Of a stretch of DNA of 64,000 bases, positions 33,427 to 63,685 are shown in pieces. Numbering within the stretch: position 1 is the stretch's first letter; every line of letters starts with the position of its first letter. The stretch is taken from assembly GCA_000787465.1 (NCBI GenBank), contig JSYX01000004.1, positions 107,141-171,140 of the forward strand, in the 5' to 3' direction. Source of the stretch: Thermomucor indicae-seudaticae (lineage: Eukaryota; Mucoromycota; Mucoromycetes; Mucorales; Lichtheimiaceae). The translations under genes and the position numbers were made by a program. Below the pieces are notes generated by a model that had not been told where the DNA came from, searched no databases, and saw only the letters and a program-made list of their open reading frames with translations.

Positions 33427-33435
33427 GGACCCCCT

Positions 33436-33583
33436 GGTGGCTGCCCAATAAGGGCTTACGGTAAGCAATTATCATCGTATATGCGGTCAGCAATTTCTCT
33501 AAGCATCAATCTTTTAAGTCTTAACGATTGGTAAGAAAGCAATCACATCATCAAAAGAGACACGCTGTACTAAATGAAGCACA
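33436..33583 (+). repeat. Direct repeat, copy A (about 148 bp)
   Basis: It aligns with 39372-39517 in the same orientation at roughly 90% identity. I counted 13 substitutions, 11 of them transitions, plus a single one-base gap. Both copies keep a GCCC(N5)GGGC hairpin and a TTAAG-T-CTTAA palindrome. It lies about 1.7 kb upstream of the XPG-Fanzor gene. Confidence 0.9.
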
Positions 33584-33736
33584 TTCGCGCTCCTGGAAAT
33601 GACCCTTTGCGTTGATAAAAACCAAAATGTAGGTTTCTGGAACTGGGCGTCACCGGGGTTTAACGTCGCTACGTTTGTGGATAGATGTAAATGCTAGCGA
33701 ATAGAACAGCACATGATATACCTAGCCCAGACAAAT

Positions 33737-34158: not shown

Positions 34159-35270
34159 GACATCAAGCTTATAAGATTGAAGGTAAATTGCAACAAGATG
34201 AATACTGCTGAATATATTTTTAACTTATGAGTGTTGGATACATCAGACCAACGCTGCTTTCTTTGCCATTAAGGTATGTTTTCCCGTAGAGCACGACACC
34301 TGTTATTTGTTGCCATAGAATATCTATCGTCTTGCTGTCAGAAGCCCTCGCAGCTTGGGTCGCAGGGTAAATGAAGGTCTAAACGCTCAAGCAACGTGCG
34401 CTAACAGCTTATAAATTATACATGTAGTGTTAAGCGACCATCACCATTTGATACGTAAGCTGCGGGACGATACTTTGCGATGACTCGTTTCACTAATTGG
34501 TTGACTTTCCTAAAGCATACGTCCATATACGAGTTACAGATCCTTTACGGCTACAGCATTACGGTACATGCAAATACGTTTGATTGCAGTGTTCGCTACT
34601 GTAATTATTCTGGTTTTTCGTATGCTGGATTGCCGCGTCATTCGTCTTGCGATGTCATGCTTTTGATGACGTTGCTTGTCGATAACGGCGACACGTCATA
34701 TCAGTCTTTATCCAATAAAACCCTTCCATTATGCTCCCCCAAGGTCCTTTTCCTTCGTTCCAAATAAGTCAAAAATACGCGCCCCCCTTTAATCCCTGAA
34801 ATGAAAAAGGAAATTTCGAGTTTGGAAAGCCCTTGGCCTGGTGTGTAGGGTGAAGGTGAAAGAGCTTAGTAAGAACCGGTTTTCACCCGGAACCGGTTTT
34901 CATCCGAAATTCACCCGATTTTTTCCCACAGTGATAACAAGCCTCCTTGAAAGCTCACTGTATCCTCGTGATTTCGAACCAGTGAAAAGTGTGGGCCAGT
35001 CCATGCGTACAGGTTTTTGAATAACTTGTTGCGTCCTCCGTTGGTAGTGTTTGAGTGAATTTACAGTGAAAATTTGTCTTGAAGGGAAATATGGTTTGGG
35101 CCATTGGTTGATGACCTAGCGCAGACTTGACAGTCCTTTAATACCTTTCTTTTGCTGTCCACTGCCGCGAAGGTGGTTTAATGACCAATTGTCTGAGACG
35201 GATCAATTGTTTAAAAAATAGTCGCCCTATCCGCATCGATTTCCTTCGTTCTTCTCTTTTCCGCTAAAAC
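34159..35270. other. Spacer upstream of the XPG-Fanzor gene
   Basis: It has no supported gene; the 95-codon frame at 34480-34767 matches nothing. A 17-bp tandem duplication sits at 34873-34906. The promoter of the downstream gene should lie in the last few hundred bases. Confidence 0.45.
34873..34906 (+). repeat. 17-bp tandem repeat (two copies)
   Basis: GAACCGGTTTTCACCCG is directly followed by GAACCGGTTTTCATCCG, differing by one C/T. A third partial unit (ATTCACCCG) follows. It lies about 365 bp upstream of the XPG-Fanzor start. Each unit contains the palindrome ACCGGT, so it could be a protein-binding site. Confidence 0.85.
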
Positions 35271-38200
35271 ATGGGCGTACAAGGTTTGCATTTCTTCGCA
35301 AGAAAAGCCGAGGCATACCAAGACGATGTGCCACTTCTCGAAAAGCTAAAAGAAGAGCGGGTGGATCATGTGTTGCTGGACGTCTGTTGCGTTTTTTTCT
35401 GGTTGTTGCAATCGGTAGTCGGGGAAAGGCTCTTAGTGAGCCATCTTCTCTTTGACAAAGGTTTCTATCGGATTACACTGTTAGCATGCAATTGGTGCTG
35501 ACTATCTTTTCCTTGTGTAAGGTCAAATGTCTGCAGAGGAACTGGAGAGCACAGAAATAGAGCTTGTTCGGGCTTTTGTTTCAGAAATGGTGAGGTTGTG
35601 CAATCCTTTGACAACAAATGGAGAACGAGAGGTGTGGTTCGTCTTTGATTCCACAATACCGTTGCCAGCAAAAGCACCTTCGCATGCGAAGAGAACTGCA
35701 AAATCCAACTGGGCGTATAACGTAGAAAAAAAATTATGGTCAAGGCCAAATGCGGCCCATAACGAGCCGATACTTCAAAAGATCAAAAAACAAGCAAATG
35801 ACTGGATTCGGTTTACACCGAGTATCAAGGAGAAGGCAGTGAACGAGCTTAGCAAGCTAGGCTGTCGATATATTATGTCAGCTTACGAAGCTGACCCGCA
35901 AATCATGTACATGGCACACATCTACTCCAGTCAGGTCGCCGTAATATCAAGAAACGGGGACTTGATGATCTATCAAGGTGCCTTGGATTGTTTGGTAAGT
36001 AGGTCAGATTGTCGCAAATATTTCGCTTTGACATTGATCAAGAGTACAGCGCGTTATGAGTGTTGATTGGCGAGGTCCTCAACTTTTCGTCCGAACAACC
36101 TGCAAGAGAAGACTACTAGAGAAATTGCACCTGAAGAAGAAAAATGAAGAGAGCTTCCTTCAGTTACTGCAGACTTCGAAAGATCATGTTTTAGGGAACT
36201 CGAAAATTGTTAATAAGATGCTGTAATATCAGGCTGAGAGGCGCTTGGCAGTCATCGCTTCTATGGCAGGCAATGATTACGCTAGGAACGTCCGAGGGCA
36301 ATCTTTTGGTAGAATTTCGAAGTTGCTTCTTTCCCTGGAGAGCAAGTTTGATGACGCAAAGCCTGAAGTTTTGATGGAACAGGTAAGACTTTTTCTTTAA
36401 GACTACGTATGGCAGCTTAAAGGTCCATATGTTAGATCCTCGAAAAAATGGAACCTAAGGCCGCATTTTTTGAAGCCGAACGGTTTGCGATCGCACTGCA
36501 TCAGTACTATGCTCCCATGATCAAAACGAGTGACGAGATTTGCATGCGTTGGCTTTGTCTGGATCTTGCTTTAAGCGAAAGCGTACTTTGCAAAGTTGAC
36601 GGCGTTTATGAGAAAAAGAAAAGCAAGGTTACAAGATCAAGCGACTTGAGGCCTGAGTTATTGCCCGTCCCGATGCGGGACTTGCCAGTGTCGATTATGC
36701 AACGAACTAAAGTAGCAGAAGAACCGATTAGTGAACGTAAATCGCGGAAAAACGCGGGTAACAGCAAGCGCGACGCATGCAAGGCTTCAGATCCAATCAT
36801 CAAGCCAAGGAAGTATGCTGACAAAACTAGAATGCTTCCAATTGGACCAAATGCATCACTGGAGAAGGTACACCCGATGAGCCGCAAGATCATCACTCTA
36901 CAATATGGTCTCTATTCGTCTGTGCTTTCAGCGGTTTACGCGCGTAACTCATCTAACAATGGGAATGCCATTGAGGAAGCGGGACGGATCTACCAAGTGA
37001 TCCGATAAGAAGTAGCTGACATGTCTCGTGTTAAGACCGCTGCGCTTCAGATAGCGATGTTAGCACTGCATTCACTTGCTGGCGAATATTCAATCAACCT
37101 CCGCAAGCATGTGGCATCCAACTTCTTCAATGCAACTCGCACCGCAGCTGTAACCGAGACTATCGACATACACAACTCGACTAGAAACGTTGACCAGGAG
37201 AATCATGTGCCTTCTGTATCTTGTGCGATGAAAACTTGGCATTGGATCATCAATATGGTCCTGGATTATCGCAGCGCTAGATATGACAAGTTGAATCGTC
37301 TGCCTGACGCGGAATACTCCAAAGAGTGCCCAGAGTTGACAGCCGAAGGACTGATTGATAACCCAAACTCATTGACTGCGTTTCCAAATGATTGATCCAT
37401 CAAGCCATTGGTGGTGTTCATGGCAGCTGATCCGAAACTGCGTAACATATTGTTAAAGGCACGACATCTTTTTTTCGAAGGATTTGCAGATCGCTGGGAC
37501 AAGATGCCCCAATATCCTAGCTCCAGTAATCGTAGTATAATGGTTCAAGATCTCGCCCGTGAGTTGGATTCGATGTTCAGGGCTTGTATAATTCATAATT
37601 TTGTGGGTGCAGCCACGGACTACTTTAGCAATCGTATGACCCGTACTTTCGGCGATTGGCTTTCTAGTCACGCCGTCAAGTCTCTTGCTTCGTTTATATG
37701 TACGTCCGTGTTCCACTTGCCAATGGATTCAAGCAACAACATCATGGATAATGTCGAAAACCTAGCGGCCACGGCTGATAGTATATCAGACATGCCCCAC
37801 GAGGCTCAAGAGCAGATCCATAACTTAATCTTGACCGAACGAAAGGGTCTGGAACAAGCTTGCGATGCGAGAATAGTCTCTCGCGCACCGAACGAAGTTC
37901 TTGAAAGGGACAAAGTCGACCTGTATGACTGTATCGGTGTTAGTCGTACAGATGGAGAAGGAGCGGCGCCCATGCAAACACCGATGCTGATCCTTATGAT
38001 GTTGTATATGCTACATGAAGAGCCTGACTGTCGTATCTTATTATGCCCACAATCTTCAGGAGGCGGATTTATTACGTTCTCTGACCGATACTTGACCACG
38101 TTGCTATCCACACAAGGCGTTTCCACAACAGATCATCGGCATGCCATCGAACATGTCTTCGATATCGGAAATATGGCAACAGTCCAGAAGGATCGAAATA

Positions 38201-39270
38201 TAAATCTTAAAAAACGACACTATTATTGGAAACTTAGAAAGCTGATACCGAATAGCACCGATGAAGCACGATATACTATATCACAGCAATTCAAAAACGA
38301 TGGAACTCGATTGTCTTTATCATACGTCGACTGACTACAAAAGAAACAACCGAAGTCGTCGTCCTCGCTACCAGAAGTGTCCAGGATAGCGCAAACACAC
38401 GCAAATCGTGTGAGCAGTGTCGCAGGTTTTGATTTTGGGGAAGTCTGTCCAGTAGCCGTACTTTACTCAAGCCAGCGCAGCGAGGATAAGCGAGGAGAGC
38501 ATGCAGGGGCACAGTTGATTGTCAAGCGGAACCGGCTTTACGGACGTTTATTCATAAATCGGAGGTGGCGAGAAGATCGATATCAGAGAGCGGAGGCGAT
38601 CAAAGACGCGTTGGTAAGGCTCTCTTGCGGATCGAAACACGGCAATCTAACTAGCTTTTTGGGATATCTGAGAGCATCGCAAGATGCAAGCATCGGTGGG
38701 TGTACAACTTTCTGGTCCTGCCCTGCAGTGAGAAGACGCGCTTGGGATACCTCGCGCTCTATGAGGTCCGCCGTGGACAGTATTACAAACGGTATCATGA
38801 AGGATGTGGAGAAGTTCCAAGGGCCCAAACCTGCCTTGCCAGCATTGCTCGCATTCGGTACAGATGGGTTCTCTCGAGAGAATCCGAAAGAGGCGTTACC
38901 AGCAATGGACCGCAAACTTGAAAGGTCACTTAGGTTTGCTGCCCAGAAAGCGGGGCATCATGTCTGCAGAGTGGATGAATACAAAACAAGCCATATATGC
39001 CCGAAGTGTCTGACTACCAATGCTGTCGTCATCAAAACCGATCATCTGAAGCGGAAGCCATGGGGCACATATTTTGCTAGTAAGCCAAGGCATCTTGACA
39101 GACAAAGAAGACAAAAAGTATTACGTGTACTCGTTTGCCCCGACTGCAAAACTATGTACCATCGAGATGGGATGGCCACGCAAAATATCTGGACCATTGC
39201 TGACTCTATATCACGGGATGCGCCCAGTGTGCTTCATACGACCGGACCCTCAAACCACGACGGCCAATAA
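35271..39270 (+). pseudogene. Composite XPG/FEN-like nuclease plus Fanzor (TnpB-like) RuvC nuclease, four in-frame stops
   Basis: Exons 35271-35460, 35522-35994, 36050-36382 and 36436-39270 join in one frame of about 1276 codons. The N-terminal third is XPG/FEN-like: MGVQGLHFFARK, Asp37 (VLLDVCC), Asp106 (WFVFDST), Glu186/Asp188 (SAYEADPQ), Asn208/Asp210 (ISRNGDLMIY) and an H3TH-like AGNDYARNVRG with Asp297. A basic linker (about codons 400-470) leads into a Fanzor-like region. Its RuvC-I is GFDFGEVCPVAVLY (Asp998) and the RuvC-II area is AFGTDGFSREN. A DEYKTSHICPKC segment follows (Glu1180 may be the relocated catalytic Glu known in Fanzors), then CPDC (1233-1236) and YHRDGMATQNI (Asp1243, RuvC-III). 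Stops interrupt at codons 280 (TAA 36224), 523 (TAA 37006), 652 (TGA 37393) and 965 (TGA 38332); the frame never shifts. Each stop is one C-to-T step from CAA or CGA. Fanzors are RNA-guided eukaryotic nucleases carried by mobile elements. Confidence 0.75.
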
Positions 39271-39547
39271 AAAAAAGAAAAACGTCAAAAGAAGGCGTTT
39301 GGTAAGTATATCATTTGCTGTTCCATTCGCTAGTATTTACATCTATCCACAAACGTAGCGACATTAAACCCGGTGGCTGCCCAGTAAGGGCTTATGGTAA
39401 GCAATTATTACCGTACATGTAGTCAGTAATTTTTCTAAGCATCAATCATTAAGTCTTAACGACTGGTAAGAAAGCAATCACATCATCAAGAGAGACACGC
39501 TGTACTAAATGATGCACAGTAAGGGATATAGCAAGTAGTACAAAAAG
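39271..39547. other. 3' flank of the Fanzor gene: possible guide-RNA region
   Basis: This is the only non-coding sequence between the Fanzor stop and the convergent F-box gene. It contains repeat copy B. In known Fanzor/TnpB elements the guide RNA comes from the 3' end of the gene and the element's right end, so this is the natural place to look. That is inference. Confidence 0.4.
39372..39517 (+). repeat. Direct repeat, copy B (about 147 bp), candidate guide-RNA scaffold
   Basis: It is the same repeat as 33436-33583. It starts about 100 bp after the Fanzor stop. It can form GCCC-AGTAA-GGGC and GGTAA-GCAATTA-TTACC hairpins. The second hairpin is lost in copy A through C/T changes. Confidence 0.9.
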
Positions 39548-41482
39548 CTAGCTAGAAGTGAGAATTCTCGTTTCGTTCAAATATAGTTGTTCGACGGAGG
39601 CGCACTTCAGAGTAAAACAAGGTTCGCTCCTGTAACCGGCATTGTTCACTATAGCCTTGTAGTTCGTGGCACGCTCCTGACTCTGCCGTAATTTCCGACG
39701 TTTTTGAGTACGTTCCACAGAATGCCTTGAGATACTCCTCGCTTCCCATGTTTTGCTGTCGATTTCAAGCAGTCGTGGCCTTTTCGGTCTTCGGAGGTCC
39801 CTCTTTTCAGGCATTGGAGGTAGATCAACTGCATGGAAATAGCGGGTTTGCCCGTTCCGGTCGTCATCAATTTCAGTCTGGAAAAAATGAACATAGGTTC
39901 TCACTCTGCCTATGTACTTGGGAAACTTGATATCTACTGAGCGAAAGCGATGATTCGGCACGCAGAGATAGATCAACTTGTTGGTGAACTTTAGCCACTT
40001 GCAGTTATGCAGTCGCAAATGACATAGATTAGGGCAACGAGAAATGAACTTGTCGAGACGTTCAGTTTCAGTCAAGTGCACCCTTTCCAAGTGCAACGTA
40101 TGCAATGACTTTGATATGCAGCTATTGTCTTCTCGATGAGGAAAGTGCAGAGTCAGGTCGATAATTTTCAGTTCTTGTAATCGTGGTAGGTTAGATAAAA
40201 GCTCTTCCAGAGAAAATCCGTCGTCCATTAAAGTAGGATTCTTTCGAATCTCCAGACTAGTCAAATTCTCCAATAATCCTAACGACGTATACGTTTGTTC
40301 GGCTATCGATGTGCCCGAGTGGAAAAAGGCATCCACGTGGGTTACTGTTTTGCTCACAGACTCGCATATTGTCCGCAACGACGTGGCCGCAGAAACGCAT
40401 AAAGTGCTAAATGCAAGATGTCGAAGGCTCGTAAGGGGACCTAGCAGATCCGCATATGTAGAGGGCGTTATAGGGAGATCGAAAAGACCTATCTTTGTCA
40501 AACGCTTGCAACGCCGGGAGAAACGCTGGCAAGCCGCACGCTCTCTCTCTACAAAGCCAGGTCGCCGACTGACAAGGCATGGCGCCGAGGAAACGAGTGT
40601 AAGACACTCCAATTCAGGATACTTTGCTCCAATGAAGTCAAACCAAAATGCGTATCTAGACATTCCGCAATTGAAGTCTAAAGCAAGATAACGTAATGAT
40701 GGTGACCAGTCGTCGTTGTTTATCATAAGGGTCTCGTCGTCACTGTCGTTGACGATATTGCCGTCGATTGCAGCAGTGGATAACGTCTGGCCCCTGATTG
40801 TCAGAGAGTTTAGTTGGGGACAAAACTGATGAATCTCCTTCAAATCTTGCGGTGTCAGAGTATCGAGTACATCGTACAGAGATAAATCGCGAAGCGATGG
40901 AGTCAACGCTAAAGTTTGCTTCAGTTGTTCCATCGTTTTCATGGTTGTAGAAACACCATTCTCGAAGCTCTCCAAAACCAACCGCGTGAGCTTTGAAGCG
41001 TCTAGCCGGGATAGCAAAGGTACAGGGCTCCAAAAATATCGCGCGCGAGTACCGTCCTTTCGATCTGGAACTCCCTGTTTAGTCAACCAACGAAATCGTA
41101 CATTTGTAAGGTTTGGGCATAGCCGACGCAAGTCCGTCATTTGCTTATGCATCAGTATCCCATCGTGGATCGTAACGTCCTCCAAGTAGACGCCCAGCGG
41201 CTGCTTGGTAGAAGATGACTGTTTAAGAGTTGTGAAGAAATCGATGAAGTCCTGGCGTCTCCCCAATTGCTGCCCGTTCAAATGGCTGAAGAGGTCCACC
41301 CTTTGGTAGAAAAACTGACAAAAGACTGTATACCAAGTACGGCATACAAACAGGCAATGGTAAATGTCACTGCGATCAAGGTAGACAAGGATAAGCTGCA
41401 AAATTTCCAGTGGCAGCAATTGTACACTCATGATTGGGGAAGAAAAAGGAACAAACGCGTCAACCCATGCAGACTGCGCCAT
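39548..41482 (-). CDS. F-box protein with leucine-rich repeats
   Basis: This is a single-exon protein of up to 644 residues. An F-box lies near the N-terminus: VQLLPLEILQLILVYLDRSD followed by IYHCLFVCRTWYTVFCQFFY, which would bind Skp1 in an SCF ubiquitin ligase. The rest consists of irregular leucine-rich repeats, for example LRDLSLYDVLDTL, LRHLAFSTLCVSA, LTSLEIRKNPTLMDDGF and LQELKIIDLTLHF. The C-terminal 80 residues are basic (RRPKRPRLLEIDS). The start could be 41482 or the in-frame Met before SVQLLPLEILQ. F-box/LRR proteins are a large, fast-evolving family in Mucoromycota; the substrate cannot be predicted. It is convergent with the Fanzor locus. Confidence 0.85.
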   Translation of the reverse strand: MAQSAWVDAFVPFSSPIMSVQLLPLEILQLILVYLDRSDIYHCLFVCRTWYTVFCQFFYQRVDLFSHLNGQQLGRRQDFIDFFTTLKQSSSTKQPLGVYLEDVTIHDGILMHKQMTDLRRLCPNLTNVRFRWLTKQGVPDRKDGTRARYFWSPVPLLSRLDASKLTRLVLESFENGVSTTMKTMEQLKQTLALTPSLRDLSLYDVLDTLTPQDLKEIHQFCPQLNSLTIRGQTLSTAAIDGNIVNDSDDETLMINNDDWSPSLRYLALDFNCGMSRYAFWFDFIGAKYPELECLTLVSSAPCLVSRRPGFVERERAACQRFSRRCKRLTKIGLFDLPITPSTYADLLGPLTSLRHLAFSTLCVSAATSLRTICESVSKTVTHVDAFFHSGTSIAEQTYTSLGLLENLTSLEIRKNPTLMDDGFSLEELLSNLPRLQELKIIDLTLHFPHREDNSCISKSLHTLHLERVHLTETERLDKFISRCPNLCHLRLHNCKWLKFTNKLIYLCVPNHRFRSVDIKFPKYIGRVRTYVHFFQTEIDDDRNGQTRYFHAVDLPPMPEKRDLRRPKRPRLLEIDSKTWEARSISRHSVERTQKRRKLRQSQERATNYKAIVNNAGYRSEPCFTLKCASVEQLYLNETRILTSS

Positions 41483-42136
41483 GTTATAGCATCAGCGGAA
41501 TATGGTATTTTGTTATGCTGTGAGACCTGGAACCCTTTTAACTCAAAATCTTGCCGTTTACTTCGCTCGATTAGCCTTTATCCGTCTAATGTCTTTTGTT
41601 GCCCTGGATGATCTTAAATATAGACATTGCTCAGCAGCTGTCATTGCAAATACAGTTTACTATGATTTACTACTATTGGAAGGGCCATACATATATCAGA
41701 ATGGATTACTTCGATAGATATGCTGAAAAAACTTTCGCTCCTGGTAGCATTAGGTTGGCCGTGTGGATAATAAGCCAACTTACATAAGACTGCTTCTAGG
41801 GTACAGTACATATATCGTATAGCTGAATACCGTGGCAATCCAGTGTTGGCTTATACAGAGCGTAAATGCACAAGTTATCTCTGGTAGCTGGCCAGACCGG
41901 CTCAAAGTATTCGCCTGACAACTTGTTACACTCATTCGAACTCCAAGTCTTCATGACCATGGACTCCTCCAGCCGCTACAATGGCAACAAGTTTTCCTGG
42001 GACTTCCTGAAGGTCTTTAACGCTCAGCAACAGAGAAAGGTCCGAGCAAATGGGTTATGTAACGATCTTGTATTGATTTGCGCCACTACAGTACAGTATA
42101 CTTCTCTGGACAAGCTGATTTATACATTTTACGATT
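41483..42136. other. Spacer between F-box and STN1 genes
   Basis: A 115-codon plus-strand frame (41866-42213) reads NKFSWDFLKVFNAQQQRKVR in part but matches nothing and overlaps the STN1 3' end. It may be a relic. No RNA gene was seen. Confidence 0.4.
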
Positions 42137-52742: not shown

Positions 52743-54955
52743 ATGACGAAGCTACAGCTTGAATATTTTAACAACAATGAAGGCACATTGACTCAGCAAG
52801 GCTGCGCCCTGCGATACCAGCTCTATCACGAGAAGATCCTTATTGAACCATGGGGAAAAGACAGGCGAGTATAATTTGAAACCACCGTATCCTGTATCCC
52901 TTCTAATCGTTCTGACAGTTTACGCGTTCGCGTCACGCAAGCCGCTCAATTCAAGGACGACTTGCCTGGTGCTCTTTTGAACCCAGAAGAATACAGATTC
53001 AAGGCACCAAGCGATGCCGTGACAATTAATGAAACCGGGGGCACAGTTCGCAATGGCAACATTGAAGCCCGTATTACAAAGCACGAAGGCAAGCTGTCGT
53101 TTTGGGACATCAAGAATAACCGCGAGCTGGTCCGCGAAGCTCAGCCTCATATTTGGATCAACGGACGTGTCATAAAGCCCCTTACCGGTGACTCTTACAA
53201 GATCGAGGCAAACTTTCAGGCTTATGAAGGCGAAAAGTTTTATGGTCTTGGTCAGGTAAATAAACTTCGCTCAGTGTCAGCAAAGGCAGCAAAGAGGTGC
53301 TGACAACAAGCAATATACCTAGCACGGTCATGGAAGGTTGAACCAAAAGGGCTGTGTGATCGATCTTTGTCAGCGCAATGCCCACGTTACGATCCCCTTT
53401 TTGGTGTCTAACCGAGGCTACGGCTTCTTGTGGAATAATCCAGCTGTTGGCCGTGTTGAACTTGGCGTGAACATGACACGCTGGGTTGCTGAAGTCGCCC
53501 AACAAATGGATGTACGTATTTTTGTGGAGCGATGTTAAAAGGATCAAAGGTCTTACACAAATTGCACAGTACTGGGTCACTACGGGCGATTCGGTATCAG
53601 ATATCATGTCCAACTATGTGGACGCTACTGGCCATGCTCCTCCTCTTCCATACTATGCGTCTGGTTTCTGGCAGTGCCGCCTACGTTACAAGTCTCAACA
53701 AGAAGTTTTGGACGTTGCACGCGAATACAAGAGACGTGGTTTGTCTCTGGATATAATTGTCATTGACTACTTCCACTGGAATCGCCACGGTGACTGGAAG
53801 TTTGACCCGGCTGCGTTCCCGGACCCTGCTGGCATGGTGAAAGAACTCAGGGAGATGGGTGTAGAAATCATGGTATCTATTTGGCCCACACTCCAGCCTG
53901 ACTCGGAAAACTTTGAAGAGATGGAGAGGAAGGGCCTCCTGTTACGCAACGCTCGCGGTCCAGCTGTACACCACCGCTTTTACGATAATCCAAGAATCAC
54001 GGAGACCCTCTATATTACCCACTACGACGCCACGAATCCTGAAGGTCGAGAATTCATTTGGTCCAAGGTTAAAAAGAACTACCACGACTTGGGCATCAAG
54101 ATTTGGTGGTTGGACGCTGATGAACCCGAGATCGAGCCTGTGCAACCTGACATGCTCCGCTTCCATATTGGCGACGGGGCTTCTGTCTACAATATCAGTC
54201 CAATGCTTCACGGCATGGGCTTTTATAAGGGTATGCGATCAGCTGGTCACGAGGATGGTGACATTATCAGCTTGTCACGGTCTGGCTGGGCGGGTTCTCA
54301 GAGATGGGCTCAGGCGATCTGGTCAGGCGACATTGAATCAACCTTTGATGTCTTTGCGGGACAGGTGCGCGCTGGTCTCAATATGGGTCTCAGTGGTATT
54401 CCATGGTGGACAACAGATATTGGTGGCTTCGTTCATGGCAACATTCACGACACAAAGTTCCGGGAACTGTTAGTCCGGTGGTTCCAGTATGGCGCCTTTT
54501 GCCCGCTCTTCCGTCTTCACGGATTTCGTGAGCCCATGCCTGAACATCAGAATGGTGCTCCCAATGAAGTCTGGAGTTACGGTGAAGAAGTATACAGAAT
54601 CCTCTCCAACTTTTTGCATATCCGTGAGCGTCTGAGACCGTATGTGATGGAGCAGATGGACAAGGCCTCCAAAGATGGCACGCCACCCATGCGACCTCTG
54701 TTCTACGACTTTGAAGATGATAAGCAAGCATGGGAAATTGAGGACGAGTTTCTTTTTGGTCCGTCAATCCTGGTCGCACCCATCGTTGAGTACCAGGCAC
54801 GCAGTCGTCAAGTGTATCTGCCTGCCGGTGCCAAATGGACCAACGTTTGGACCGAACAAGTCTTCAAGGGTGGTCAAACCATCCTTGTCGATGCACCACT
54901 TGAAATCTTACCCTTGTTCCTGCGCGATGGAGCCAACCTACCCATCAAGGCTTAA
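52743..54955 (+). CDS. GH31 alpha-xylosidase (YicI-like)
   Basis: GH31 alpha-xylosidases release alpha-1,6-xylose from the non-reducing end of xyloglucan oligosaccharides or isoprimeverose. The start MTKLQLEYFNNNEGTLTQQG has no signal peptide, so the enzyme is probably cytosolic. N-terminal beta-sandwich segments include SLRVRVTQAAQFKDDLPGAL. The catalytic barrel shows PLPYYASGFWQCRLRYKSQQ, the acid region IWWLDADEPEIEPVQPDM (nucleophile Asp) and SLSRSGWAGSQRWAQAIWSG (acid/base Asp region). It continues GIPWWTTDIGGFVHGNIHD and RWFQYGAFCPLFRLHGFREP. The C-terminal part ends FLRDGANLPIKA. Four or five introns lie in the first 800 bases; the rest (53,550-54,955) is uninterrupted. The WxxDxDEPE context fits the alpha-xylosidase subfamily better than alpha-glucosidase. 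Confidence 0.9.
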
Positions 54956-55999: not shown

Positions 56000-58306
56000 A
56001 TGTCTTCTCCATTACCAGTCAATGCCAAGCAGAATTACCGACGTCGGGATCTTGAGAGTAATGAAAATGGGGAAGGAACTGGAGAAACTCCCCTGTCAAG
56101 CTCGTTTGACCGTGCAGCCACTACGGCTCGTTTAGGATCCTCTCCTGCGATATGTTATGCTGCGTCCCCGCCACGCAGTATCCATTCCGCTGGCTCGTAT
56201 GGCAGCACAGACTTGGAAAATGTAACGACCACGACAAGCGGGCACTTATATCGTCCGCTTTCGACGCCGGTCTACAATTATGAAGACAATACCGTATCCG
56301 TGGACCTACCGGAAAATCAAGTAGCAAAAGTCGTCAAACGACATTTAGTCGAAACTTCACCTACTGCATCCTTTTTGAACACTTCTCTACAACGCATCAG
56401 CACGAACCAATCTGCTGGAAATGATTCTGTGCATTCGAACCGGACAGATACGGGTTCATCAGGTGGTGAACATGTGCCAAAGTCCGTCCATCAACTAACA
56501 GGTGGTGCCATCACTCACGATATCTACAAATGGGCCGAAGTAGCTGACGCCGAGCAGGCAAGACGAACCCGGACACGGTCTTTTCATTTGCCTCGCAATG
56601 AACCTTCTGATCCTTCCTTGGCACGACTCAGAGATCCAGGAGGATTCAGGCGGCATTTTGTATACAGCCAAGCTGCGCGAAAAGGGAAAGAACCACCGCA
56701 CTGGATGACTAGAACCTTTGTCGATTTTCTCGCTCTGTACGGCCATTTCGGTGGTGAAGACTTGAGCGACGATGAAGACGAAGAAGGTGAAAGTGAACCG
56801 GAGGTGGTGGATGAACGTACAGGATTGCTGCGACGCCGCAGAAAGGGGCGAGATGAAGAGGAAGAGGGCGGCGACGAAGAGGATAGAGCGGCTCGACTGA
56901 TTCGGAAAGCACAAGCAAACGCAGTTCAAGGTACCGCTACTCCTGCCAAAGCTGTCTTTCTACTATTGAAGTCTTTTGTTGGCACGGGTAAGTTATACCC
57001 AAATTTGAAAGAAAGCAACTTGGACTAAGTCTATACTATAGGCGTTATGTTCCTCCCGAAAGCGTAAGTGTTATGACATCTATAGTTCATGGCTTTGCTG
57101 ACTTTCCATCGTAGGTTCTATAATGGAGGGCTCTTCTTCTCCACTGCGCTATTGACAGCCATAGCCATTATATCGTTGTTCAGTTTTCTTCTACTGGTTG
57201 AAACTCGAAATAAGGTCCCAGTTTCGTTTGGTGACATTGGCGGTATTCTGTACGGACGCTTCATGCGGTTCGCCGTGCTTACGGCTATTACTTTTTCCCA
57301 AGTATGGTGATATATTCTACAGTGTTTGTTCCTGGACTCACCCTTAGGCCTAAAACAGGTAGGATTTGTGTGTGCCTACATGGTGTTCGTATCACAGAAT
57401 GTGCAGGCTCTGATAGAGTCTCTATCACATTGTGACATTCTCATACCGCTTCACTATATCATCCTAGCTGAAGTGGCCGTCTTTGCACCGTTGGCTATGA
57501 TTCGCAGGATCCAAAAGCTGTCGTCCTTTGCTCTTATTGCCGATGTTTTCATACTTTTCGGGCTCGTGTACTTGTACTACTACGATCTCCTGACTCTTGC
57601 GACAGACGGTATCGGGAACGTAGAGTGGATCATCAACACCAAATCGTTCCCAATGTTTATTGGGACAGCTGTTTTCACTTATGAAGGCGTCGGTCTCGTT
57701 ATTCCCATCACCGAGTCTATGGCAGAACCACGCAAGTTTCCAAAAGTCCTCGCAGGAACAATGGTATTCATTACGGCTATATTTCTCTCGGTTGGATTCA
57801 TATCTTATCTGGCATTCGGAAACAAAGTCCAGACCGTCATTTTGCTCAACATGCCTGCAACGCCCATGGTGAATACCGTGCAAGCCTTATACGCGCTCGC
57901 CATTTGCTTGTCGATTCCGCTGCAGCTGTTTCCAGCTATCCGCATTATCGAAAATTTACTATTCACAAGATCAGGAAAGCACAACCCTATCGTCAAATGG
58001 GAGAAAAATGTGTTCCGTCTGCTGGCAGTGCTTGGATGTGCAGGCATTGCTATTGCAGGCTCAGGGGATCTGGATAAATTCGTGTCTCTTGTCGGCTCGC
58101 TCTGCTGTGTACCGCTGTGTTTCCTCTTTCCGCCGCTATTCCACTTTAAGGCTGTAGCTCGGACATGGTGGAAGAAGGCTCTTGATATCGCGGTCATTGT
58201 CTTCGGCGTTCTTTCTATGACTTACACGACAGGAATCACGATAGCGCTGTGGTCTGCTGGCGGTGAAGAAGCTCCCATATCCCGCTGTACTCCTAATGGA
58301 AACTAG
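56000..58306 (+). CDS. Vacuolar amino-acid transporter (AVT3/4-like, AAAP family)
   Basis: These transporters export neutral amino acids from the vacuole. The start at 56000 (MSSPLPVNAKQNYRRRDLES) leads into a hydrophilic N-terminal region of about 310 residues with acidic stretches (LSDDEDEEGESEPEVVDERT), typical of fungal AVT3/AVT4. The first helix reads KAVFLLLKSFVGTG spliced to VMFLPKAFYNGGLFFSTALL. Later segments include QVGFVCAYMVFVSQNVQALI, MFIGTAVFTYEGVGLVIPIT and VGFISYLAFGNKVQTVILLN. The final exon (57356-58306) runs to APISRCTPNGN. Three or four introns lie between 56,985 and 57,356, including a tiny exon encoding VMFLPKA. Eleven membrane helices are expected. Confidence 0.9.
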
Positions 58307-60266: not shown

Positions 60267-60365
60267 AATTCCCCGAGACATCAGCATAGCAACGTCGCTT
60301 GATTGCTTTTAGACCATTTTCATCTTGGTTTTTGTGTTTGCTTGTTAATTCATTACAAGAGAAAG

Positions 60366-61601
60366 ATGCTGTATCTGACAGCTGACTTCTTCCCTATCTT
60401 TGTACCACTTGGTATCATTGGCTTCTACCGTTACCTCATTTATTTCATCAAACTACTTGCGTGGGGCGTGTATCGGCCCATACGACCATTGCCTAACCCT
60501 CTTTATAAGCCCGAGGAAGATGTAACGATTGTTGTGCCTACGATTGATGCGGGTGAAGAGTTCCGCGAAGGCGCCAGATCTTGGCTAGCATGCAATCCGA
60601 AACGTATTTTGGTCGTGACAGAAGAAGGGATGAAGGGTCCGATACAGCAGCTGGCGAATGAAATCGATCCGAGCAAGATTGAAGTATTGACCGTTCCGAA
60701 AGCCAACAAGCGCGAGCAAATGGTGAAAGGCATTCAACACACGGATACGGATATTCTTGTGTTCGCCGATGACGACGCGATTTGGAAACCAACCATGTTG
60801 TCTTATATTTTGGCTTGCTTTGAAGACGAGTCTATTGGCGGTGTTGGCACATCGCAGGCTGTCAAGGCAGTCAATAAGCGCAAAACGGTCTGGGAAGTTC
60901 TGTCTGCCTTCCGATTGACGATACGGAATATTGAAGTGGCTGCATCAACGCATATCGACGGTGGTGTGTGCTGCATCTCAGGCCGTACTGCAGCGTATCG
61001 AACGGTCATTTTGAAAGATCCCGATTTCCAGCACCAGTTTACGAATGACTACTGGCGAGGCAAGCACAAGCTGAACTCGGGTGACGACAAATTCTTGACT
61101 CGCTGGATGATATCGCGTGGGTGGAACACGTACATGCAAGTGTGTCCAGAGGCCCAGCTCTTCTCGACTTTCAAGGATAACTGGCGATTCTTGCGACAGG
61201 TTCTACGTTGGACCAGAAACACATGGCGCTCGGATTTCAGATCGCTTTTCATTGAACGTCACCTGTGGACGAAGCATCCGTTCGTTTCCTATACTATGTT
61301 GGACAAGTTTTTCAATCCGCTCACTCTGCTGAGTGGGCCCGTGTCCGTCGTCATTCTGTGCTTTTTGCAGTATCATTTGCCGCAGTGGAATATTGTCTTT
61401 TCTTACCTTGTCTGGCTGCTTATGACGCGACTTGTCAAGCTCTTGCCACATTTGGTCCGCTGGCCGCACCATATCATTGCCGTTCCGGCGTTCTTAGTCT
61501 TTAACTTTTATTTCGCATTTATGAAACTGTATGCTTTATTTACCTTGAACGTCACCGGATGGGGCACGCGAAAGATGGGCCAAGAACAGGTTAATCCATA
61601 A
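60366..61601 (+). CDS. GT2 family polysaccharide synthase-like glycosyltransferase
   Basis: This is a single-exon membrane glycosyltransferase of about 411 residues, similar to fungal type-2 glycosyltransferases (Cps1/GT2 class, related to hyaluronan synthases) that make surface polysaccharides and affect hyphal growth. The N-terminal helix is MLYLTADFFPIFVPLGIIGF. The catalytic core has VTIVVPTIDAGEEFREGAR, DTDILVFADDDAIWKPTML (DxD), GGVCCISGRTAAYRTVILKD, SGDDKFLTRWMISRGWNTY (the ED/DD base) and RQVLRWTRNTWRSD (the QxxRW motif), followed by four or five hydrophobic helices. An in-frame Met at 60303 would add a poor N-terminal extension, so 60366 is preferred. The product is not known from sequence alone. 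Confidence 0.88.
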   Translation: MLYLTADFFPIFVPLGIIGFYRYLIYFIKLLAWGVYRPIRPLPNPLYKPEEDVTIVVPTIDAGEEFREGARSWLACNPKRILVVTEEGMKGPIQQLANEIDPSKIEVLTVPKANKREQMVKGIQHTDTDILVFADDDAIWKPTMLSYILACFEDESIGGVGTSQAVKAVNKRKTVWEVLSAFRLTIRNIEVAASTHIDGGVCCISGRTAAYRTVILKDPDFQHQFTNDYWRGKHKLNSGDDKFLTRWMISRGWNTYMQVCPEAQLFSTFKDNWRFLRQVLRWTRNTWRSDFRSLFIERHLWTKHPFVSYTMLDKFFNPLTLLSGPVSVVILCFLQYHLPQWNIVFSYLVWLLMTRLVKLLPHLVRWPHHIIAVPAFLVFNFYFAFMKLYALFTLNVTGWGTRKMGQEQVNP

Positions 61602-62249: not shown

Positions 62250-63685
62250 ATGTCAGCAACTCCTAGCGTGTTTGACCATAACCAGGTCACAACGGAGAAC
62301 TTCGCGGAAGCCTACGTGAACATCGTTGACAAAGTTACGTCTGCTGATTACATTGCGATCGACACGGAGTTCACTGGTTTCGGTAGCAGGCTTGCTCCAA
62401 ATCTCGATCACCGCTACCTCGCGATGCGTGACATCGTCCGCTCGCACAGCCTTCTTTCTTTGGGGATCACGACGATCACCAAGACGGACGTCGGCAATGG
62501 CGTACCAGAATACCATTTCGACAACTTCGAAATTTTGCTGAAGAATGACGAAAGATTCACAGTGGACCCGAGGAATATGCAGTTCCTGGCGCAGAACGGC
62601 TTTGACTTTAATCGCTTGTTCTCAGTCGGCCTTCCTTACCGCGCAGGTGCCTACAAACAAGGAGAACGACGGAACGTTCGGGATATGTTGTTCGAAATAC
62701 TATATCACGTCAAGACCAAAAGGATCCCGCTCATCGTGCATAACGGGTTCCTCGATCTGATGTATTTTTATCATAGCTTCGTGACGGAACTTCCGCCCCA
62801 ATGCCACACTTTTACGGCCGATCTGGTGGAGCTCTTTCCTGGCGGTATCTTCGACACCAAGCATTTGTCTCAAACAGTACTTGAGGAGCAGAAGACCTTT
62901 CTCGCTTACCTCTACTGCAAGTTTAAGCGCGCTCAGGACAGCAAGAAAGAGGAGGAGGTCCTGTTCACTGCACTTATTGAGCCCAAGATCCCGGCAACAG
63001 GCCGAAAACGGCGTCTCACCTTTGACGACGACCGCGAGAGCAAGCGAAGGAAGAAAACGCAGAATGCCTCTGGCGAGTCCGACGGTATCTGTAACCAGTA
63101 TGCAGTAAGTAAATATGCAGCCTGCTCTGTCAACGATGTCAATAACTGTTTTGCTACTAGAACTATGGGATCTGCAGCCGTGGCGCACAGTGTACGCTTT
63201 CACATGACATGGACAGGATTTTAGATCGCGACGAGAAGAAAGAGGCTGAGAAGGATGTCGACAAGGACAGTGTTAAAGACACAAAAACGAAGGAGCCAGA
63301 AGTTGTTAAGGAACAAGGAAAGCACAAAGAAGCAGAATGCAGAAGCACTGCGCAGCAGGACACGTCTGAAGAGGATGAGAAGGAGGGGTTTGACTTTGAG
63401 GCCGCTGTGTACAAGAAGGATGAGGTGGACCCGAACAAGCGGTTTGACCACGCGGCGCATTTTGATGCGTTCATGACGGGCTTCATATTCTGCCACATGG
63501 CACGACAGTTGGGTGACCAGGCCCTCAACTCCCATATCAACAATCTGTACCTGATGAAGTTTGATGTCCCGCTGAAGTTGGCTCAGAACGTATTCGCGAA
63601 GCCTAGCAAGTCATGGGTTGACGCCTCTCGGCACATTGAGTCTATGGGTAAAGAGGTTGGCTCAGATACCTACCTAGATGACTAA
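62250..63685 (+). CDS. TOE1: TOE1-like 3'-exonuclease/deadenylase
   Basis: TOE1 trims the 3' ends of snRNAs and other small RNAs. The CAF1/DEDD nuclease domain begins at about residue 30: ADYIAIDTEFTGFGS (DxE motif), NMQFLAQNGFDFNRLFSVGL, IPLIVHNGFLDLMYFYHSF (third Asp) and, after the zinc finger, HFDAFMTGFIFCHMARQLG, which carries the last DEDD-type residues. An intron of about 52 nt near 63,107-63,160 joins ICNQYA to NYGICSRGAQCTLSHDMDRI, forming a CCCH zinc finger between the two parts of the nuclease domain, as in animal TOE1. A highly charged Lys/Glu linker and a nuclear-localisation-like KRKR stretch are present. The gene appears complete, with the stop at 63683-63685. The presence of U2 in this window is a thematic link only. 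Confidence 0.92.

Follow-up and report, generated by a model that had tools for sequence, protein, structure and literature searches.

The window analysed here, a stretch of 64,000 nucleotides of Thermomucor DNA, contains a gene in which an XPG-like nuclease is very likely fused to a Fanzor-like nuclease. XPG-like exons at 35271-36382 are spliced in phase into the frame 36436-39270, at the end of which lies a Fanzor-like RuvC/zinc-ribbon nuclease. Judged from sequence comparisons, this appears to be the only recognised gene of a dispersed fungal mobile element and to encode about 1400 residues. The fusion together with membership in a mobile element is probable; our confidence in this combined claim is reduced because the junction of the two halves is tiled by overlapping pieces and is not spanned by one. 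The window copy itself is a pseudogene, a dead copy of the mobile-element gene. Its frame 36436-39270 carries three in-frame stops (37006, 37393, and 38332), and hence this copy cannot make the protein.

The exons, all on the forward strand, were compared with P0001, a 1416-aa predicted protein of Lichtheimia hyalospora FSU 10163, and all splice sites in the window were read by eye. The ATG at 35271 starts MGVQGLHFFARKAEAY..., which resembles an XPG/FEN N-terminus. Exon 1 of the XPG half (35271-35435; open reading frame with a GT donor) extends from MGVQGLHFF to LLDVCC, includes the first acid motif and is 38% identical to residues 1-55 of P0001. Exon 2 (35521-35994) is an open reading frame with VFD, YEAD, and SRNGD that matches P0001 106-225; its acceptor is unsure, and an in-frame alternative is possible at 35539. 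The earlier note had missed one XPG-like exon, which starts at 36050 and ends at about 36180 (RVMSVDWRG...LLEKLHLKK). It lies in the open reading frame 36038-36226 and was aligned by eye with RILKFNWEI...TTKRELLNAL of P0001; its 3' border is unclear, as no clean donor was seen. The translation of the following exon (36233-36382) contains the MAGNDYAR motif and corresponds to P0001 268-302. This exon ends in phase 0 at 36382, and a 53-nt GT-AG intron (36383-36435, by-eye reading) separates it from the Fanzor-like frame, so that the proposed in-phase join holds.

Within this frame, the stop-free stretch 36436-37005 comprises the tail of the XPG half, a basic linker, and the Fanzor-like start (GLYSSVLSA), and it is co-linear with P0001 from residue 316. 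Positions 37009-38331 form the middle region, which is broken by the stop at 37393 and has no recognisable domain. The RuvC/zinc-ribbon (TNB) part occupies 38335-39270 and matches PF07282 with 39.8 bits (cut-off 26.3); a stop codon closes the gene at 39270. RuvC-I (GFDFGEVCP), DEYKTS, CPKC...CPDC, and YHRDGMATQNI are all present where the earlier note had described them. Besides the three stops, one active-site acid of the XPG half is changed relative to the relatives (DGD to NGD). Changes between the window copy and the copy on contig C272 of the same genome number 43, 42, and 66 at codon positions 1, 2, and 3, respectively (about 417 sites each), which is a weak hint of past selection.

With the window fusion as the query, P0001 was the sole match (E 1.9e-56; 7428 scored candidates, about 5.8 billion proteins). 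Used as a query over the same proteins, P0001 retrieved only itself, in searches that reach relatives with exact shared 5-residue words only. P0001 begins with MGIKGLHQFLR, has the same order of parts as the window gene, and ends in RuvC and a zinc ribbon; its longest contig is 8.5 kb. In its zinc ribbon (residues 1328-1381), one cysteine is lost, the second pair reading CEHN instead of CxxC. P0001 may thus itself be degrading or altered. A profile search added at least three relatives among 8000 scored candidates, namely P0002, P0003, and P0004, which derive from assembled read contigs and are 61-66% identical to P0001. Viral contigs and prokaryote genomes yielded no relatives at the sensitivity of the searches made there. 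P0003 and P0004 share a longest contig of 8033 bp and may be exons of one gene.

P0004 spans P0001 1-232, which is most of the XPG half. P0003 (P0001 299-795) and P0002 (320-795) begin at, or shortly after, the point where the recognised XPG domain ends, the last matched XPG motif lying at about P0001 residues 280-299; both continue across the linker and far into the Fanzor-like half. A stop-free piece of the C134 copy in the Thermomucor genome spans P0001 268-390 and thus connects the NDY motif with the linker. The stop-free pieces of C134, P0003, and P0002 overlap and tile the junction between the XPG and Fanzor-like halves. At none of the 14 loci scanned did one stop-free DNA stretch contain the NDY motif as well as the GLYSSVL start, for which introns or decay may be responsible. 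The gene model of P0001 is therefore the one sequence that comprises both.

The order of the two halves recurs within the Thermomucor genome (24.8 Mb in 735 contigs). The window XPG half matches 17 contigs, its own included, and 11 of these also carry the Fanzor-like half, in the same order and on the same strand. The RuvC part is reached in nine contigs (C4, C272, C134, C165, C198, C65, C591, C645, and C209), and the middle part, but no further, in two (C431 and C8). C156 continues to the linker only and is outside the 11 fusion copies. The copies on C432, C551, and C187 are truncated by the contig end, and C241 and C710 have an XPG half with no Fanzor-like half seen. C128 was dropped as a family member, its translation being FEN1-like. 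Each of the 11 fusion copies was seen incompletely, being interrupted by stops, shortened by deletions, cut at a contig end, or matched only in part; internal parts are missing from C272 and C165. The C134 copy aligns with P0001 in five stretches (residues 1-226 and 267-1411; 42, 32, 41, 39, and 44% identity), some with stops. Such similar divergence would be expected of two halves that evolve together within one gene. Recurrence in 11 of 17 contigs, together with P0001 as one predicted protein from a second species, places the fusion order beyond chance.

It is most improbable that two neighbouring genes are present which only the first reading and the gene models have joined. Such an arrangement would agree with the broken window copy and its guessed introns, with the status of P0001 as a predicted model, and with the lack of a stop-free stretch holding both recognised domains among the 14 loci. 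However, it is at odds with the overlap of the stop-free C134, P0003, and P0002 pieces across the junction and with the repeated order and strand. That one polypeptide comprises both halves, as the earlier note had claimed for a copy that proves to be a pseudogene, is thus supported but not proven by the P0001 gene model and the junction tiling.

Profile matches, the predicted fold, and the conserved acids identify the XPG half as being of the Exo1/FEN1 type and nearest to Exo1. As the window XPG half alone gave no Pfam match at E ≤ 1, its identity rests on its relatives. XPG_I scored above the cut-off in pieces of C65, C187, C198, and C134, as did XPG_N in P0004; in P0001, XPG_I reached 15.9 bits, under the cut-off of 24.9. 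With NCBIfam, only sub-threshold matches were obtained, mainly to TnpB models, and to fen_arch for C65. The predicted fold of the XPG half is of the FEN type, and the family splits from six XPG-family genes of the same genome (44 columns). Acidic metal-binding residues are conserved in FEN1 and Exo1. We chose the acid motifs before looking them up in the copies; five of five are found in C134 and C65, and they also stand in P0001. The XPG/FEN identity proposed earlier is therefore borne out by the domain matches in relatives, the acids, and the fold, and not by a Pfam match of the window half. Like Exonuclease 1 and FEN1, the family has an MGI.GL start, XPG_N and XPG_I regions, the acid motifs, and the predicted fold; in contrast to them, it sits in a mobile-element gene and is joined to a Fanzor-like nuclease.

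Alternatively, the XPG half could have lost its cutting activity and serve as a tether that binds DNA structures and directs the guided nuclease to forks or breaks. In keeping with such a role, active-site acids of the XPG half are altered in the window copy, C272, and C241, and true XPG proteins are matched with modest profile scores. We regard it as very unlikely, since P0001, C134, and C65 keep the acid motifs although the last two are only about 30-42% identical to P0001, and retention at this distance is expected of an active site.

The right half is apparently nearest to Fanzor1 (SpuFz1), and an RNA-guided activity would follow from what is known of that family. The six-sequence family profile ranked SpuFz1 first (3.3e-6), two LaTranC chains second and third, and PpFz1 fourth (4.3e-4). 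A smaller profile (A2) ranked LaTranC first (1.6e-3), followed by SpuFz1 (2.3e-3) and PpFz1 (0.23). The SpuFz1 alignment takes in the FYS..A..R..W, DEYKTS, and RP..F.R stretches. The Fanzor/TnpB signature given in 2013 is D-x(125-275)-[TS][TS]-xx-C4 zinc finger-x(5-50)-RD (PMC3627910). In all six sequences with both motifs in view, the spacing from D to TS is 177-198 (184 in the window), within this signature, and both CxxC pairs are whole in seven of nine sequences, the exceptions being P0001 and C65. In the fingerprint described in 2023, the first CxxC is preceded, at a distance of six residues, by the catalytic glutamate (Ealt), and the same source describes DPG at RuvC-I as almost confined to Fanzors (PMC10711439). 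Ealt is present in nine of nine sequences, with an intervening stop in C65, but none of seven RuvC-I motifs reads DPG: DFG stands in P0001, the window, C294, C368, C65, and C134, and DSG in C591. Hence, we label this half Fanzor1-like, as it shows the signature and the shifted glutamate and not the DPG fingerprint. The Fanzor identity given in the earlier note is qualified to this extent.

If the right half belonged to a TnpB-family lineage other than Fanzor that also has the shifted glutamate, this would account for the DFG or DSG in all seven RuvC-I motifs. The 2023 tree has a separate clade with the shifted glutamate and D-hydrophobic-G (PMC10711439), and LaTranC, which is not a Fanzor by name, came second in the profile search. 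We consider this placement unlikely, as the same search put SpuFz1 first and PpFz1 fourth. Moreover, metal binding in SpuFz1 is said to occur via D383 and N385 (PMC10432273), and by inference SpuFz1 is itself without DPG.

For the about 650 residues before RuvC, no match was found by PDB profile search or Pfam. The middle-region profile gave nothing in the PDB at E ≤ 10, being insensitive, as it included RuvC rows and missed even SpuFz1; Pfam on middle-region pieces gave no match, and P0001 as a single sequence gave one irrelevant match in the PDB. AlphaFold on the Fanzor-like frame of the window reached a pLDDT of 32. By its position, the middle region is probably the WED/REC lobe. The linker between the halves is rich in basic residues and might serve nuclear import. 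With the Fanzor1 proteins SpuFz1, GtFz1, and PpFz1, the family shares the C-terminal RuvC and zinc ribbon, Ealt, the C-terminal stretches, and residence in eukaryotic mobile elements; it differs from them in the added N-terminal XPG nuclease, a larger middle region, and DFG for DPG. Known Fanzor1 proteins are mostly 600-700 aa long (PMC11423790).

TNB domains are frequent in the genome, with 37 matches at E ≤ 0.001, many of them short or at contig ends. Matches on C323, C438, C215, C640, C290, C40, C16, and C294 lie close to contig ends, as if this repeat breaks the assembly. TNB fragments on C184 (3026-3265) and C16 have WNRD instead of HRD and perhaps represent a second Fanzor lineage; C184, looked at as a stand-alone Fanzor control, is a fragment only.

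The borders of the element were placed by comparing copies. By blastn, window positions 35005-35989 (85%) and 38446-39399 (82%) match C272:132-2040, which lacks the intervening part, and the flanks are unmatched. As far as it is shared with the internally deleted C272 copy, the window copy extends over 35005-39399 (+). In the C134 subfamily, four copies with unlike flanks share one right border, which lies about 240 bp past the last P0001-matched residue. The left border, seen in two copies only, is about 510 bp upstream of the ATG. Inspection by eye revealed neither terminal inverted repeats nor target duplications at the element borders, and no transposase was obvious by eye among up to three open reading frames per flank of five copies. 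A pair of 83-nt inverted repeats in the window was rejected as terminal repeats, the C272 comparison putting the left one outside the element. Mucorales Fanzor1 elements are described as having MuDR-like ends in some cases, a Crypton or Harbinger piece in others, and no recognisable inverted repeats in still others (PMC3627910). Folding of the right ends as a guide RNA was no better than that of shuffled sequences (z values of -1.02 and -0.93), and 0 of 19 pairs had a compensatory change.

Separate pieces of the right end also occur. Two of them, in opposite orientations, are found upstream of the window copy (33432-33463, + and 33645-33709, -), and a 150-bp direct repeat (33433-33583 / 39369-39518) extends past the element's right border. 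A piece of about 130 bp on C289 corresponds to the right end of the C134 element and to no other part of it, reminiscent of one-ended insertions.

From knowledge of the two families, the Fanzor-like half would use a guide RNA derived from the element's right end to cut DNA at an empty site, and the tethered XPG half would trim the 5' ends or flaps of the guided break. Resection would expose single-stranded ends, hinder end joining, and favour homologous repair, by which the element could be copied from the occupied chromosome into the empty site. We propose the cut-and-resect step by the fused nucleases tentatively. Its feasibility is supported by engineered exonuclease-Cas parallels: compared with Cas9, an editor built on Exo1 increased homology-directed repair and reduced end joining (PMC11107001), and T5 exonuclease was fused at the N-terminus of ErCas12a (PMC8945719). 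Both combine a 5' nuclease with an RNA-guided nuclease, and T5exo-ErCas12a shares the N-terminal order; they are man-made, whereas the natural fusion is known here from sequence. It is rather doubtful that the full scheme applies, that is, a single-gene element in which one protein breaks DNA with an RNA guide, resects it, and homes to empty sites via homology-directed repair with no transposase.

The XPG half may instead process flaps or R-loop edges at the element ends, in transposition intermediates made with a transposase supplied in trans. Several other transposon families carry Fanzor1 genes (PMC3627910; PMC10711439), XPG is reported to cut one R-loop flank (PMC7286691), and the few flank open reading frames held no transposase-like one by eye, all in keeping with help in trans. 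This role is somewhat doubtful, however, as no partner transposase was identified and the borders are without repeats or duplications recognised by eye.

If the fusion holds, nature has reached a design that engineers built as Exo1-Cas9 and T5exo-Cas12a to steer break repair, and the question arises whether mobile-element guided nucleases shape the repair of their own breaks. In addition, the family extends the Fanzor1-like nucleases by a branch whose active-site motif is an unusual DFG. We know of no earlier natural 5' resection or flap nuclease fused to a nuclease of the RNA-guided kind. DNA transposons such as AcademX are said to carry an XPG nuclease and would thus share an XPG nuclease within a mobile element; we know of no case in which it is joined to a TnpB-family nuclease. 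XPG-carrying DNA transposons of this kind did not surface in our open-access literature search. In agreement with the earlier note, no paper naming both XPG and Fanzor was found in that open-access literature. No paper there combined Fanzor with Lichtheimia or with Mucoromycota. In the passages retrieved, TnpB with XPG appeared in an unrelated context only, and a text on Fanzor with flap endonuclease discussed viral homologues and described no fusion.

Directly downstream of the element lies an F-box gene with weak leucine-rich-repeat matches (39551-41491, -). Further host genes of the window, assigned by Pfam, are a glycosyl hydrolase 31 (53486-54952), an amino-acid transporter (57326-58303), a glycosyltransferase 2 (60303-61598), and a CAF1 ribonuclease (62250-63221).
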